DNA of 21,477 bases. Source: Clostridia bacterium (GTDB lineage: Bacteria; Bacillota_A; Clostridia; Christensenellales; Aristaeellaceae). The notes beneath the pieces are model-generated. The model was given only the letters and a program-made list of their open reading frames with translations. It had not been told where the DNA came from and did no database searches. Position 1 is the first letter of the stretch; every line of letters begins with the position of its first letter. Below are positions 6,891 through 18,986 of the stretch, one piece after another. The position numbers and the translations under genes were made by a program. The stretch is from positions 1 through 21,477 of the forward strand of contig JAFQEB010000024.1 of assembly GCA_017399225.1 (NCBI GenBank). The letters run 5' to 3'.

Positions 6891-6940
6891 CAGTATTCTG
6901 ATAATTCGTGAACCTTACATCAGCAGGGAGGGATACGCTG

Positions 6941-7483
6941 TTGGATATCGGTGAAAAGCTTCGTCAGCTGCGGCTGCAGCGGGGACTGACACAGGAAGAC
7001 ATGGCGGACCGGTGCGAGCTGTCCAAGGGCTTCATCTCACAGGTGGAGCGCAACCTCGCCTCCCCCTCCATCGCCACGCTGACCGACATGCTGGAATGCC
7101 TGGGCTCCTCGCTGAGCCAGTTCTTTTCCGAGGCCAAGGCAGAAAAGACCGTCTTTGCCCCGCAGGACATGTTCGTCAAAGAAGACGCCGAGGGGATGCG
7201 CGGCTCGGTGACCTGGCTGGTGCCAGACGCACAGAAAAACACAATGGAACCCATCCTGGTGGAAATGGACGAGGGCGGTGAGACCTATCCCCTGCCGCCG
7301 CATGAAGGCGAGGAATTCGGTTACGTCCTTTCCGGCTCGGTGTACCTTGTCACCGGCGACAAAAAAACCCGCGTGCGCACCGGCTGCAGCTTCTGCATCC
7401 ACCCGCGCCAGGCCCATCACCTCATCAACGCCGGCAAAACGAAGGCCCGCGTGCTGTGGGTCAGCAATCCGCCCATCTTCTGA
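6941..7483 (+). CDS. HTH-cupin transcriptional regulator of polyamine uptake
   Basis: The start is taken as TTG at 6941, with GGGAGGG 8 bases upstream. A GTG eleven codons earlier lacks a ribosome site. The 180-residue product has an XRE-type helix-turn-helix at about 5-60 (LRQLRLQRGLTQEDMA, then LSKGFISQVERNLASPSIATL) and a C-terminal cupin barrel at about 105-175 (HEGEEFGYVLSGSVYLVTGD and HPRQAHHLINAG). This is the architecture of PuuR-type regulators, in which the cupin is thought to sense a small metabolite. It stands 49 bases before potA with no terminator between. With a palindrome over the promoter start, it probably represses its own potABCD operon in response to polyamine. Regulation is inferred from position. 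Confidence 0.9.
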   Translation: MDIGEKLRQLRLQRGLTQEDMADRCELSKGFISQVERNLASPSIATLTDMLECLGSSLSQFFSEAKAEKTVFAPQDMFVKEDAEGMRGSVTWLVPDAQKNTMEPILVEMDEGGETYPLPPHEGEEFGYVLSGSVYLVTGDKKTRVRTGCSFCIHPRQAHHLINAGKTKARVLWVSNPPIF

Positions 7484-7532
7484 GTTTGATCCCTCCTGAG
7501 ATCCCAATATATATTGAAGGGAGCAGCCCTCC

Positions 7533-8649
<1,117 letters not shown>

Positions 8650-8660
<11 letters not shown>

Positions 8661-9642
8661 CCTGTCGCTGCCATGGTGGGCATGGGCGGCAATGGGGCTG
8701 GGTCTGGTGCTTTTCGCAGTGCTGGTGGGCTTCAGCGTCCGCCGCAACCGCGGCATACACCGTTCCCTCTTTGCCTCCCCCTACACGCTGTGGATGATCA
8801 TTTTCACCGTCGTGCCCGTGATCCTGATCGGCTATTATGCCTTCACGGATGCAAGCGGTGCCTTCACGCTGGATAATTTCAAGAACTTCTGGGACTCCAA
8901 CTACGAGTCCAACAAGGTGATCCTGGACGTCATGGGCGAAGCGGGCGCGGCCTACATCACCCGCGGCACCGTGAATGTGGACACCCTGGTCTACTCCCTG
9001 TGGATGGCCTTCCAGTGCACGGCCATCTGCCTGCTGCTGGGCTACCCGGCGGCGCTGTTCATGGCAGACCGCAAGATGAAGATCGGCCCCACGCTGGTGG
9101 TGCTCTTCATCATCCCCATGTGGATGAACTTCCTCCTGCGCACCATCGCCTGGATGAGTCTGCTGGAGGATTCCGGCCTGATCAACACCGTCCTTAAATG
9201 GATGGGCTTTGATGGCGTGCAGCTGATGTACAACTCCCAGGCCGTGCTGCTGGGCATGGTGTACAACTTCCTGCCTTTCATGGTCTTCCCCATCTACACG
9301 GTGCTGAGCAAGATGGACTACCGCCTGACGGAGGCCGCCGCCGATCTGGGCTGCAACAGCTTCCGCACGCTGTATAAGGTCACGCTGCCCCTGTCTGTGC
9401 CGGGCGTCGTGAGCGGCATCACCATGGTCTTCATGCCCTCGGTGACGACGTTCTTCATCCCCCGCGTGCTGGGCGGCGGCAACACGATGATGTTCGGCGA
9501 CCTGATCGAATCGAAGTTCCTCACCGAAGGCAACTGGAACGTCGGTTCCGCCCTGTCGCTGATCATGATGGTGCTGATCCTCATCAGCCTGTCCATCCTA
9601 CGCAAGGCCGACCCCAACGGCGAAGGAGGTGGCATTGCATGA
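8650..9642 (+). CDS. potB: Spermidine/putrescine ABC transporter permease PotB
   Basis: Membrane permease forming half of the polyamine channel with PotC. The coupling helix that contacts PotA is marked by the EAA motif, [15 protein letters not shown] at 228-242, followed by LPLSVPGV. At 330 residues it is longer than the usual ~285. The difference is an extra N-terminal hydrophobic segment (about 9-30, [18 protein letters not shown]) ending in a basic RRNRGIHR before the canonical first helix ([19 protein letters not shown]), suggesting seven membrane spans. A GGAGGAGGA stretch in the end of potA serves as ribosome site. It overlaps potA by 11 bases and potC by 4 (ATGA). Confidence 0.93.
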
Positions 9643-10409
9643 TGAAATGGTTCAAGCGCTGCTACCTGGGCCTGATCCTGGTCTTCCTGTATGTACCGAT
9701 CCTGGTGCTGATCGTGCAGAGCTTCAACGCAGGCAAGTCCCGCGCGAAGTGGGAGGGCTTCTCCTTCCGCTGGTACATCGAGCTCTTCCAGGATGAGCGC
9801 ACCCTGAACGCACTCTTCGTCACCCTCTCCATTGCAGTGCTGGCGATGGTCATCGCCACCGTCCTGGGCACCCTGGCCGCCATCGGCATCCACGCGATGA
9901 AGAAGCGCCCCCAGGCGCTCATGATGACCCTGACCAACCTGCCCAACACCATGCCCGACATCGTCACCGGTATTTCCCTGATGCTGCTGTTCATCTTCAC
10001 CAAGGTGGAGCGCGGCTATGTGACGATGCTGCTGGCCCACATCACCTTCGATACCCCCTATGTCATATTGTCGGTGCTGCCCAAGCTGAAACAGATGAAC
10101 CGCCACACCTACGAGGCGGCGCTGGATCTGGGCGCAACGCCGATGTACGCCCTCTTCCACGTCATCATTCCCCAGTGCAAGCAGGGTATCATCACCGGCG
10201 CGATGCTGGCCTTCACCCTCTCCCTGGACGATTTCACCATCAGCTATTTCACCACGTCGCCCCTGGTGCAGAACCTGTCCACGCTGATCTACTCCTCCGC
10301 CCGCAAGGGCATCGACCCCTCGCTGAATGCACTCTCCGCCCTGATGTTCGTGGCGCTGCTGGTGCTGCTCCTCATCGTCAACCGCCGCACGGCTGAAGAC
10401 AAGTCTTGA
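9639..10409 (+). CDS. potC: Spermidine/putrescine ABC transporter permease PotC
   Basis: The second permease subunit of the polyamine importer. Its 256 residues contain about six hydrophobic segments, starting LGLILVFLYVPILVLIVQSF (10-29). The EAA motif EAALDLGATPMYALFHVIIP lies at 159-178, followed by LAFTLSLDDFTISYF (190-204), a stretch characteristic of PotC. It is translationally coupled to potB through an ATGA overlap and is followed 20 bases later by potD. Nothing is missing compared with the family. Confidence 0.95.
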   Translation: MMKWFKRCYLGLILVFLYVPILVLIVQSFNAGKSRAKWEGFSFRWYIELFQDERTLNALFVTLSIAVLAMVIATVLGTLAAIGIHAMKKRPQALMMTLTNLPNTMPDIVTGISLMLLFIFTKVERGYVTMLLAHITFDTPYVILSVLPKLKQMNRHTYEAALDLGATPMYALFHVIIPQCKQGIITGAMLAFTLSLDDFTISYFTTSPLVQNLSTLIYSSARKGIDPSLNALSALMFVALLVLLLIVNRRTAEDKS

Positions 10410-10429
10410 TTATGAAAGGATGAACTACC

Positions 10430-11578
10430 ATGAAGCTTCGCAAGATTGCCCTGCTCATCGTCGTCACCCTCTGCGCTCTGCTGCTGGCGAGCTGCTCCTC
10501 TGAGCCCGCTGAGACCCCCGCCGAGGCCACGGCAATGCCTGAAACGCTCGCCACCGTGGTGCCCGCTGTTGAGCCGGAGGCCACTGCTGTTCCCGTGCAT
10601 ACCGGCAAGGTCGTCAACGTCTACAACTGGGAGGACTACATCGACCCTGCCGTGATCACCCTGTTTGAAAAGGAAACCGGCATCAAGGTCAACTACATGT
10701 GCTTCACCACGGTGGAGGACATGATCGTGCAGGTGGAGGCCAACCCCGGCGCCTTTGACGTGTGCTTCCCCTCGGACTACATCATCGAGCGTATGATCAA
10801 GAACGACATGCTGGCGGAGATCGATTTCGCCAATGTGCCCGGCGCAGATCAGACCATCGAGTACCTCCGCAGTCCTGCCTACGACCCCGAGAACAAGTAC
10901 TCCGTACCTTATATGTGGGGCACCGTCGGCATCCTGTACAACAAGGAATTGATCGCCGATCCGGTCAAGAGCTGGTCCATCCTTTGGGACACGCAGTACC
11001 AGAAGAACGTCTTCATGCTCGACTCCATCCGTGACAGCATGGGCGTGACCCTCAAGTCCCTGGGCTACAGCATGAACACCCACGACATCCCCTCTATCAT
11101 GGCCGCCAAGCAGAAGCTGATCGAGCAGAAGCAGTCCGGCGTGGTGAAGGCCTACCAGGTGGACGAGACCAAGGACAAGATGGTCGCCGGCGAGGCCGCC
11201 CTGGCGCTGATGTGGTCCGGCGACGCGATGTACGCCATCGACCTGAACGAGAACCTGGATTACTTCGTGCCGGAAGAGGGCTCCAACGTGTGGGTGGACG
11301 GCGCTGTCATCCCCAAGACCGCCAAGAACAAGGCGAATGCTGAGAAGTTCATCGACTTCCTCTGCCGCCCCGAAATTGCCCAGATGAACTGCGAGTACAT
11401 CTGCTACTCCAGCCCCAACCAGGGCGCCATCGACCTGATGGGCGAGGAATACACGGGCAACCACGTGCAGAACCCCGACCCCGCCGTGCTGGAAAAGTGC
11501 GAGTTCTTCAACGATATCGACGCGAACTTCCTGAGCATCTATGAAGCGATGTGGATGGAAGTTAAGAATACGAAGTGA
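10430..11578 (+). CDS. potD: Spermidine/putrescine-binding lipoprotein
   Basis: The extracellular substrate-binding subunit of the importer. Its 382 residues begin with a lipoprotein signal peptide whose lipobox LLASC places the acylated Cys at 22. A Pro/Glu/Ala/Thr-rich tether follows (about 23-58), then the binding domain from VVNVYNWEDYIDPAVITLF. Aromatic and acidic positions typical of PotD pockets are present: MWSGDA and VWVDGAVIP (Trp and Asp), and an acidic LDSIRDSMG where E. coli has its Asp/Glu pair. AAAGGA lies about 10 bases before the ATG. It is last in HTH-cupin-potABCD. The exact polyamine bound cannot be read from the sequence. Confidence 0.94.
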   Translation: MKLRKIALLIVVTLCALLLASCSSEPAETPAEATAMPETLATVVPAVEPEATAVPVHTGKVVNVYNWEDYIDPAVITLFEKETGIKVNYMCFTTVEDMIVQVEANPGAFDVCFPSDYIIERMIKNDMLAEIDFANVPGADQTIEYLRSPAYDPENKYSVPYMWGTVGILYNKELIADPVKSWSILWDTQYQKNVFMLDSIRDSMGVTLKSLGYSMNTHDIPSIMAAKQKLIEQKQSGVVKAYQVDETKDKMVAGEAALALMWSGDAMYAIDLNENLDYFVPEEGSNVWVDGAVIPKTAKNKANAEKFIDFLCRPEIAQMNCEYICYSSPNQGAIDLMGEEYTGNHVQNPDPAVLEKCEFFNDIDANFLSIYEAMWMEVKNTK

Positions 11579-12942: not shown

Positions 12943-16961
<4,019 letters not shown>

Positions 16962-16971
<10 letters not shown>

Positions 16972-18065
16972 TCCTTATTACCTCCCATCAGCGCAGTGAA
17001 GCGGTCGAACAGGGTATGGGTGCCGATCTTGGCGCCACCGTGGATACCGCCGGTCATAGCGGGCTGGAACTGCACGGAGAAAACCGGCATATCCAGATAA
17101 TCGACGCCCTCGCAGGAGCCGTCGTTGCGGTTGATATAGCGCAGAGAGGCGTTCTCGGGCAGGCTGTCCTTATCGACCTCATAGCCATGGTTCTGGCTGG
17201 TGATGCCGCAGGAGCCGGTCTTGACGTCCTCGATAGGCTGATTGCCGCCGCGGTGGCCGAAGGGCAGCTTGGCAACGGACGCGCCCTGGCTCACGGCGAT
17301 CAGCTGATGGCCCAGGCCGATGCCCATCATGGGCAGGTGCTTGTCCTCCAGGAGCTTGGCGATCTCGTCAGCCACAGCACGGTAATCCGCCGGATTCTCC
17401 GCACCGTTGGTGATCACCACGCCGTCGGGGCTCAGGGCCGCAACGGCCTCCGCCGTCACATTGGCAGGAACCAGCGTCACCGCGCAGCCGCGCTTCTCCA
17501 GCTGCTGCACCGTATCGGCCTTCGCGCCCATGTCCCACATAACGACATTGTACTTGCCGGGCTTTTCGGCGGGAACGATGTCCTCCACGCCGGTTTCGGT
17601 CTGCGCGTCAATGGTCATCGCAACCAACTCGGCAGCAGCCGCAGCGACGTCGGCGGGCTTTTCGGTCAGGATGGCGGCATTCATTACGCCCTTGTCGCGC
17701 AGGCGGCGGGTGATGGCACGGGTATCCACCCCCGTCAGGCAGGGGATGCCCTGCTGGGTAAGGTAATCCTCCAGCGTACCGCCGCAGCGGAAGTTGCTGG
17801 GCTTGTCACACAGCTCACGGCACACATAGCCCGCGAGGCTGGGCTTCACAGCCAGGTCAGCCTCCGGCACCACGCCGTAATTGCCGATCTGAGGGAAGGT
17901 CTGCACCACGATCTGCCCGGCATAGGCAGGGTCCGTCAGGGTATCCATATAGCCCACGACGGAAGTCAGGAACACTGCTTCGCCGCTGGACGCCTTCTCA
18001 GCGCCGCGCAGCACGCCCTCGTACAGCTGGCCGTCCGCCAGCAAGAGGTAGCCTTTCTTTTCCAT
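16962..18065 (-). CDS. carA: Carbamoyl-phosphate synthase small subunit, glutaminase-dead
   Basis: At 367 residues it is full length, with the N-terminal CarA domain (VGYMDTLTDPAYAGQIV, FPQIGNYG, GVDTRAITRRLRDKG) and a C-terminal class I amidotransferase fold (GHRGGNQPIED, ITSQNHGYEVD). The usual catalytic residues are absent. GIGLGHQL puts Gly250 at the nucleophile Cys (E. coli C269). SVQFQPAM puts Gln334 and Ala336 at the catalytic His and Glu (H353, E355). The glutamine contacts S47 and G243 of E. coli appear as Ala47 and Glu223. The frame and overall conservation are good, so it is not decaying at random. It probably serves as a structural partner of CarB in an ammonia-using enzyme. GGAGGG precedes the ATG. 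It lies between argF (18 bases away) and carB (10-base overlap). Confidence 0.92.
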
Positions 18066-18083: not shown

Positions 18084-18986
18084 TTACTTCATGCAGGCGA
18101 CCAGAACGGCCTTCTGCGCATGCAGACGATTCTCCGCCTCGTCGAAGATCTCGTCGGCATGGGCCTCGAAGACCTCCTCGGTGATCTCCTCCCCGCGGTG
18201 GGCGGGCAGGCAGTGCTGCACCATGCAGCCCTCGTGGGCGACCGCCATCAGCTCGGCATTGACCTGATAGCCGGCGAAGGCCTTTTCGCGGGCAACGCGC
18301 TCCTCCTCCTGACCCATGGAGGTCCACACGTCGGTGAAGATGACGTCGGCGTCCTTGGCGGCCTCAAGGGGCTTGTCGGTCATGAAGAACTGACCGGGGT
18401 ACTGCTTGACGAACTCCAGGATCTGCGCATCAGGCTGGTACGCGTCGGGGCAAGCGATGGACACCTTCGCGCCGACCTTCAGGAAGCCGACGATCAGGGA
18501 GTTGGCCATGTTGTTGCCGTCGCCGATGTAGCACATGTTCACATCGAGGGCGCCCTTGTGCTCGCGCACCGTCTGCAGATCCGCCAGCACCTGGCAGGGA
18601 TGGCAGAAGTCGGTCAGACCGTTGATAATCGGGATGGAGCCGTACTTCGCCAGGTCTTCAACTTCCTGCTGGGCGAAGGTGCGGATCATGATGCCGTCCA
18701 GGTAGCGGCTCAGCACGCGGGCAGTATCCTGCACGGGCTCGCCGCGGCCAATTTGAAGATCGCGGCTGGACAGGAACAGCGCCTGGCCGCCCAGCTGGTA
18801 CATACCCGTCTCAAAGGAGACGCGGGTGCGGGTCGAAGACTTCTGGAAGATCATGCCCAGGGTCTTGCCCTTAAGGATCGGATGCGGGATGCCAGCCTTG
18901 TTCTCCGCCTTGAGCTTATCCGCCAGATCCAGCAGCTCGATGATCTCATCCTTGCTCAGGTCCAGCAGCTTCAGGAGGTGCTTCAT
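18084..18986 (-). CDS. argF: Ornithine carbamoyltransferase
   Basis: Joins carbamoyl phosphate to ornithine to give citrulline in arginine synthesis. The reading frame is open far upstream, but homology starts at MKHLLKLLDL and AAAGGTGGAG lies 9 bases before that ATG. The 300-residue product has the carbamoyl-phosphate site SSTRTR (50-55), the HPCQ motif (129-132), GDGNNMANS (155-163), the ornithine-binding DVWTSMGQE (219-227) and HCLPAHRGEE (258-267). The SMG motif favours ornithine over aspartate carbamoyltransferase. Anabolic argF is more likely than catabolic arcB because it heads a carA-carB operon, with a TATAAT promoter and about 120 bases of leader. No residue loss was noticed, in contrast to carA. 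Confidence 0.95.
   Translation of the reverse strand: MKHLLKLLDLSKDEIIELLDLADKLKAENKAGIPHPILKGKTLGMIFQKSSTRTRVSFETGMYQLGGQALFLSSRDLQIGRGEPVQDTARVLSRYLDGIMIRTFAQQEVEDLAKYGSIPIINGLTDFCHPCQVLADLQTVREHKGALDVNMCYIGDGNNMANSLIVGFLKVGAKVSIACPDAYQPDAQILEFVKQYPGQFFMTDKPLEAAKDADVIFTDVWTSMGQEEERVAREKAFAGYQVNAELMAVAHEGCMVQHCLPAHRGEEITEEVFEAHADEIFDEAENRLHAQKAVLVACMK

Follow-up and report, generated by a model that had tools for sequence, protein, structure and literature searches.

The carA gene of the window (the whole 21,477-nucleotide stretch of Clostridia DNA that was analyzed) was found to encode a small subunit of carbamoyl-phosphate synthetase (CPS) in which the Cys, His and Glu of the glutaminase triad are all replaced. 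This triad loss is shared by relatives, and the enzyme therefore probably runs on free ammonia. We consider it likely that this CarAB is an ammonia-dependent CPS and that its small subunit is a pseudo-glutaminase, retained because it supports CarB structurally and perhaps also regulates it. An earlier note on this DNA had suggested a retained pseudo-glutaminase, and this view was borne out: the triad was absent clade-wide, the gene was intact and under purifying selection, the protein was the sole CarA above the family cut-off in 12 of 13 genomes, and its predicted fold was that of CarA.

The carA gene (16962..18065, minus strand) was an open frame of 367 amino acids with no internal stop, in agreement with the intact length and frame reported in the earlier note. 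Its product scored above the cut-offs of TIGR01368 (346.5 bits; cut-off 307.35) and NF009475 (358.2 bits; cut-off 221). Membership of the CarA family and the two-domain fold were evident from the TIGR01368 score, from matches to PF00988 and PF00117, and from the match of an AlphaFold2 model (mean pLDDT 88.6) to 1a9x_B. The best PDB matches of this model were E. coli CarA (TM-score 0.88) and human CPS1 (0.85), and in the loop where the triad His and Glu would lie, mean pLDDT was 77 for residues 331-340 and 62 for residues 341-350.

By PDB alignment to E. coli CarA (in which C269 is Ser in the C269S entry and Cys in the wild-type row) and by codon readout on the minus strand, the nucleophile Cys269 was found to be replaced by Gly250 (GGC, 17316..17318), His353 by Gln334 (CAG, 17064..17066) and Glu355 by Ala336 (GCT, 17058..17060), with codons and coordinates exactly as first described. 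The same alignment confirmed the two further changes noted at that time, Ala47 (GCC, 17925..17927) at the equivalent of E. coli S47 and Glu223 (GAG, 17397..17399) at the equivalent of G243. Leu251, Gln254, Asn292, Gly294 and Tyr295 were still present and aligned to other E. coli residues that we take to have roles in the glutamine pocket. The Cys-His-Glu triad of a glutamine-hydrolyzing class I amidotransferase CarA was thus missing, and by known CPS chemistry the window CarA is predicted to be unable to hydrolyze glutamine. The family models that name these CarAs say glutamine-hydrolyzing, which known chemistry does not permit. Excerpts of a review describe Cys-269 and His-353 of the E. coli enzyme as essential (PMC6245113). 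An Rfam search of the window at the gathering threshold gave no match.

A search of relatives for the Gly/Gln/Ala set, as proposed in the earlier note, found it in 64 of the 120 homologues listed (the best 120 of 8000 scored); another 24 had Gly in place of the nucleophile but a different pair at the other two positions, and Cys/His/Glu (C/H/E) was seen in 32. A CarA 100% identical to that of the window (P0002) was recovered from other contigs. The replacement at the nucleophile was Gly in all 88 homologues without Cys listed by this first search, while a second search gave 40 homologues without Cys, with Gly in 36, Asp in 3 and Ser in 1. At 38 named loci, all of which were read with a CarA frame open through to the stop, the triad positions were C/H/E in 18, G/Q/A in 9, G/M/Q in 4 and G/E/E in 4, with G/V/E, G/T/E and S/Q/K in one each. 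Because the same set recurs in relatives (64/120 listed homologues and 9/38 named loci), chance and sequencing or assembly error are ruled out, and we give next to no credence to the triad loss being an artefact of sequencing, assembly or annotation; the synonymous codons of the set, moreover, differed across loci L001-L004.

The window's own group comprised 13 loci (L001-L012 and L032), of which nine were assigned by title to the gut of goat, sheep, roe deer or water deer, while the titles of the other four named no host. A match to the window CarA was found in 112 of 150 relatives of genome G004. Thirty loci were read from this survey: 13 were those of known genomes and 17 were new, with two of the new loci (G028 and G030) lacking Cys and 15 having C/H/E. 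Glu at position 223 set the window and some of its near relatives apart, Gly being found there in most of the clade, and position 47 was variable in the rows without Cys (A, N, V, T, S, H, G and others).

On a tree of 96 rows of our choosing, Cys must have been gained or lost six times or more; this was a quick tree with SH-aLRT support only, in which the long branches L029 and L035 joined directly. One change was that of the gut Clostridia clade (44 rows, SH-aLRT 99). The others, by reading of the tree, were P0089, L019 with L020, the Siminovitchia-Lederbergia group of Bacillaceae, a small Asp group and L035. The first-branching rows of the Clostridia clade (P0101) and of a 15-row Bacillaceae group (P0233) have Gly yet keep His and Glu, which suggests that the nucleophile was lost first, by replacement of Cys with Gly. 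This order was not clean, as P0066 (G/H/A) and P0150 (G/H/E) were nested among rows without His. The nucleophile elbow is strained, and this strain may favor Gly after catalysis is no longer needed.

Several other arrangements were observed among the Bacillaceae and their like. In three Bacillaceae-like CarAs (P0153, P0178 and P0230), the nucleophile Cys was replaced by Asp, with His and Glu retained. Culturable Bacillaceae (Bacillus norwichensis and Siminovitchia; L022, L023, L025 and L026) had a G/E/E CarA in a pyrimidine-type locus. Siminovitchia fortis DSM 16012 and Lederbergia lenta are culturable Bacillaceae whose CarA is without Cys. A second CarA-like copy was present in B. norwichensis (G021) and in three further Bacillaceae genomes (G022-G024), where it lay below the family cut-off and adjoined carB, with Gly at the nucleophile and His and Glu kept (L066-L068). 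In Virgibacillus halotolerans (L035), the sole CarA above cut-off had Ser/Gln/Lys at the triad.

Comparison of dN/dS across relatives, also called for by the earlier note, pointed to purifying selection on carA. By the NG86 method, 15 pairs drawn from the window and 10 loci gave values of 0.09-0.25 for CarA, 0.02-0.07 for CarB and 0.02-0.09 for ArgF, and the four intact pairs with usable dS gave 0.09-0.12 for CarA and 0.02-0.07 for CarB. The ratio of CarA to CarB protein distance was 2.3-7.0 in 15 group pairs, 8.05 for L019-L020 and 0.9-2.8 in 13 intact pairs; in the four Bacillaceae G/E/E pairs it was 1.3-2.2, with no clear speed-up. When pairs of similar CarB distance were compared, the ratio was 3.51-4.71 in six pairs of divergent members without Cys versus 1.98-3.16 in ten pairs with the closest intact sisters (G027, G031, G033, G039 and G063), a speed-up of about 1.8-fold in medians (4.15 versus 2.35). 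The larger speed-up obtained from distant intact pairs was rejected as overstated. Many columns were invariant over 56 aligned CarAs, those without Cys and the intact alike. Constraint on the CarA without Cys is relaxed but real.

The carB partner adjoined carA in an overlapping frame (10 bases shared with the end of carA). CarB and DapF (diaminopimelate epimerase) were found to form a single ORF of 1342 amino acids (window 12943-16971, minus strand), with a carB part (residues 1-1062; 13786..16971) that matched TIGR01369 with 1392 bits and a DapF part (residues 1063-1342 plus the stop; 12943..13785) that matched TIGR00652 with 285.7 bits over residues 1066-1340. This fusion was open in 11 of the 13 group genomes, the other two being cut at contig ends. 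It was also found in relatives with an intact CarA (L014, L015, L223, which is cut, and L226-L230) and therefore predates the triad loss. A search of the open-licence PMC literature for the CarB-DapF fusion returned only unrelated papers.

The window CarB aligned with E. coli CarB over at least residues 1-1051, and its half boundaries were set after what we take to be those of the E. coli protein. Clade-specific changes were found in the carboxyphosphate half (residues 1-401; 15769-16971, minus strand). When 14 CarBs from loci without Cys were compared to the five nearest intact CarBs, ten differences were near-fixed (at least 13/14 against 5/5; L002 and L007, with incomplete CarB, were excluded), and all ten were within residues 1-401. 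A control split of two intact CarB groups placed 13 of 37 differences in this half (Fisher p 0.0002 vs 10/10), in a test that was post hoc, prompted by a first difference list, and that rests on one branch. When all 11 intact CarBs of both groups were taken, residues 1-401 held 8 of 9 near-fixed differences; with the more distant intact CarBs alone, these residues held 18 of 43, with no enrichment. The mean distance to the sisters relative to that among sisters was 1.8-fold in the carboxyphosphate half (0.126 vs 0.070), 1.0-fold in the carbamoyl-phosphate half (0.086 vs 0.087) and 1.1-fold in the other two domains. Positions at which the window CarB differs from the sisters include 158, 174, 177, 272, 338 and 345. 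Met174 and Glu177 of CarB lie within the stretch FTMGGEGGG, presumably the Gly-rich ATP loop as in E. coli. The carboxyphosphate half thus appears to have changed on the same branch as the triad loss, and adaptation of CarB is only suggested; with no adaptation at all, the pattern could equally have arisen from a recombination tract that spans carA and the beginning of carB. E. coli CPSase is reported, in excerpts of a review, to require very high ammonia (PMC6245113), and a CPS run on ammonia would therefore require an adapted CarB.

Among the 13 group genomes, all of them MAGs and perhaps incomplete, one CarA above the TIGR01368 cut-off and one CarB above cut-off were detected in the same 12. 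PyrB was above its cut-off in 13 of 13, and carbamate kinase was above cut-off in none of the 13 (best match 24.1 bits; cut-off 358.25). Since CarA and CarB are single, PyrB is present and carbamate kinase is below cut-off, the window-type CPS probably supplies most of the carbamoyl phosphate that this group uses to make arginine and pyrimidines. A consumer of carbamoyl phosphate, the ornithine carbamoyltransferase ArgF (300 amino acids; TIGR00658, 411.9 bits), is encoded directly upstream of carA (18084..18986, minus strand), and the argF-carA adjacency was conserved in clade loci. Elsewhere in the window (6908-11578, plus strand), a helix-turn-helix/cupin regulator gene was followed by putative polyamine transporter genes, identified by eye as encoding an ATPase, two permeases and a binding protein.

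The earlier note had also asked for a search for a second, intact carA. None was found above cut-off in 12 of the 13 genomes; genome G007, by contrast, had one on contig C103. This contig (L039, L082, L095, L103 and L160) encoded an intact CarA, an unfused CarB, a canonical GuaA, PyrG and two GATase_6 proteins. Its genes were mostly without counterpart in the other 12 group genomes, and G007 had the group's own versions as well; C103 is probably contamination.

Other amidotransferases were read in these genomes, with the names HisH, PurF, GlmS, PurL and C26-type hydrolase given by motif reading and Pfam match. The nucleophile was kept in HisH (three proteins read), PurL (11 of 13 genomes), PurF (10 genomes) and GlmS (6 genomes). 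Genome-wide loss of glutamine amidotransferases was thereby ruled out, and the loss in CarA is therefore selective. PF00117 proteins were few, with 2-7 matches per group genome, and those read resembled HisH and C26-type hydrolases. The GMP synthetase of most group genomes was a form of about 336 amino acids without GATase. A GuaA paralogue of about 490 amino acids had a GATase without the Cys motif in nine of nine read (L122-L124, L128-L132 and L134); it also was without the KPPATIEWE-type C-terminal end of canonical GuaA. This paralogue may have a substrate other than XMP, and its neighborhood, read in two regions, gave no clue.

PyrG (CTP synthase N-domain, PF06418) was detected neither in 12 of the 13 group genomes nor in G018-G020, and was present in G013-G017 (as a fragment in G016) and on contig C103 of G007. 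Genome G018 has an intact CarA, yet PyrG is likewise absent, so this absence may be a background trait rather than tied to the switch. If there is truly no recognizable CTP synthase, there would be room for an unknown route to CTP. AsnA was found in 15 of 15 genomes without Cys versus 1 of 6 intact comparators in a first comparison, and in 12 of 15 other intact relatives in a second set, for an overall count of 17/17 versus 13/21 (Fisher p 0.005, with kinship ignored). As a marker of the ammonia switch AsnA was rejected, since its presence in the 12 of 15 further intact relatives makes it largely a background trait. It is conceivable, though on balance somewhat doubtful, that several bacterial lineages independently made CarAB ammonia-only and that in the herbivore-gut Clostridia this was accompanied by remodeling of the carboxyphosphate half of CarB and by a wider tilt from glutamine to ammonia; the elements of such a tilt would be the GATase-less GuaA and the paralogue with a dead GATase, the ammonia-type AsnA, and the lack of a recognizable CTP synthase.

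CarB makes carboxyphosphate, and by established CPS chemistry ammonia from solution can be used. If the window enzyme is, as seems likely, an ammonia-dependent CPS, free ammonia would enter CarB from solution and attack carboxyphosphate in the N-terminal half, after which the usual carbamate and carbamoyl-phosphate steps would feed ArgF, encoded by the adjacent gene, and PyrB. CarA would hold CarB in working shape, and such a scaffold role is plausible. The gut is rich in ammonia, which may have made the glutaminase dispensable.

Other explanations were weighed against a retained pseudo-glutaminase. CarA could be a functionless remnant that is decaying toward loss while CarB alone makes carbamoyl phosphate from ammonia, and its raised dN/dS and its rate relative to CarB, above that of intact sisters, are as expected for decay; the 10-base overlap with carB could hold the frame. 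We nevertheless regard decay as unlikely, given that dN/dS is still 0.09-0.25, that 38 of 38 CarA loci read are open to the stop, that many columns are invariant over the 56 CarAs with and without Cys, and that carA is kept throughout the clade. That CarA is a sensor, tuning CarB through bound glutamine or some other metabolite without hydrolysis, is quite unlikely in our view: Leu251, Gln254, Asn292, Gly294 and Tyr295 or aromatic equivalents are kept in nearly all rows without Cys, but these pocket residues may have a structural role, there is no equivalent of Ser47, and position 223 is variable.

Finally, glutamine might still be the nitrogen source, by use of another CarA residue or of another glutaminase that docks to CarB. 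HisH-like and class-I hydrolase proteins with Cys do occur in these genomes, none of which is direct evidence for such a role. There is no replacement nucleophile at the CarA site, His and Glu are gone as well, and the few PF00117 proteins that were read (from the 2-7 matches per genome) are like HisH and C26-type hydrolases, all of which renders this explanation very improbable.

The pseudo-glutaminase reading bears on two published generalizations. As excerpted, a review holds that glutamine is the physiological donor for bacterial CPSases in general (PMC6245113), and a structure paper states that all CPS types but CPS1 use glutamine (PMC4655335). If use of ammonia is confirmed, the gut Clostridia clade and the independent case in culturable Bacillaceae would count against both statements. 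No bacterial case of such a CPS was found in the open-licence PMC literature, as represented by excerpts. These lineages would offer replicate natural experiments on the purpose of an inactive amidotransferase subunit and on the adaptation of a synthetase to external ammonia.

Among known systems, the E. coli and other bacterial CarAB enzymes (CPS II) have the same two-gene architecture and families as the window CPS, in which the glutaminase triad is missing. Tetrapod CPS I (human CPS1, the urea-cycle enzyme; PDB 5dot/5dou) is described, in excerpts of the structure paper, as having an inactive glutaminase-like domain and as requiring external ammonia (PMC4655335). The window CarA, the model of which matches the N-terminal part of human CPS1 (TM-score 0.85), has likewise lost the catalytic Cys, with Gly250 in place of the Ser of CPS1 (PMC4655335, in excerpt). 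Human CPS1 has a Cys to Ser change and needs N-acetylglutamate; in the window CarA, by contrast, no residue of the Cys-His-Glu triad is left, and the earlier note was right that the loss exceeds that of CPS1 (for which we rely on the same excerpts of PMC4655335). Unlike the single chain of CPS I, CarA and CarB are encoded here by separate overlapping ORFs. The window CPS would work like CPS I without being a member of it, and an origin independent of CPS I is inferred because intact bacterial sisters are present on the tree. A shift from glutamine toward ammonia is likewise described, in excerpts, for Alcolapia CPS III and bullfrog CPS I, which keep the triad and have altered glutamine-binding residues, whereas the window CarA has lost the triad (PMC7657897). 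The NAD synthetases without a glutaminase domain form an ammonia-only branch of another bacterial amidotransferase family, as outlined in the portions of the source available (PMC3376133); in that branch the glutaminase domain is absent, whereas in the window CPS it appears to be kept in an inactive form.
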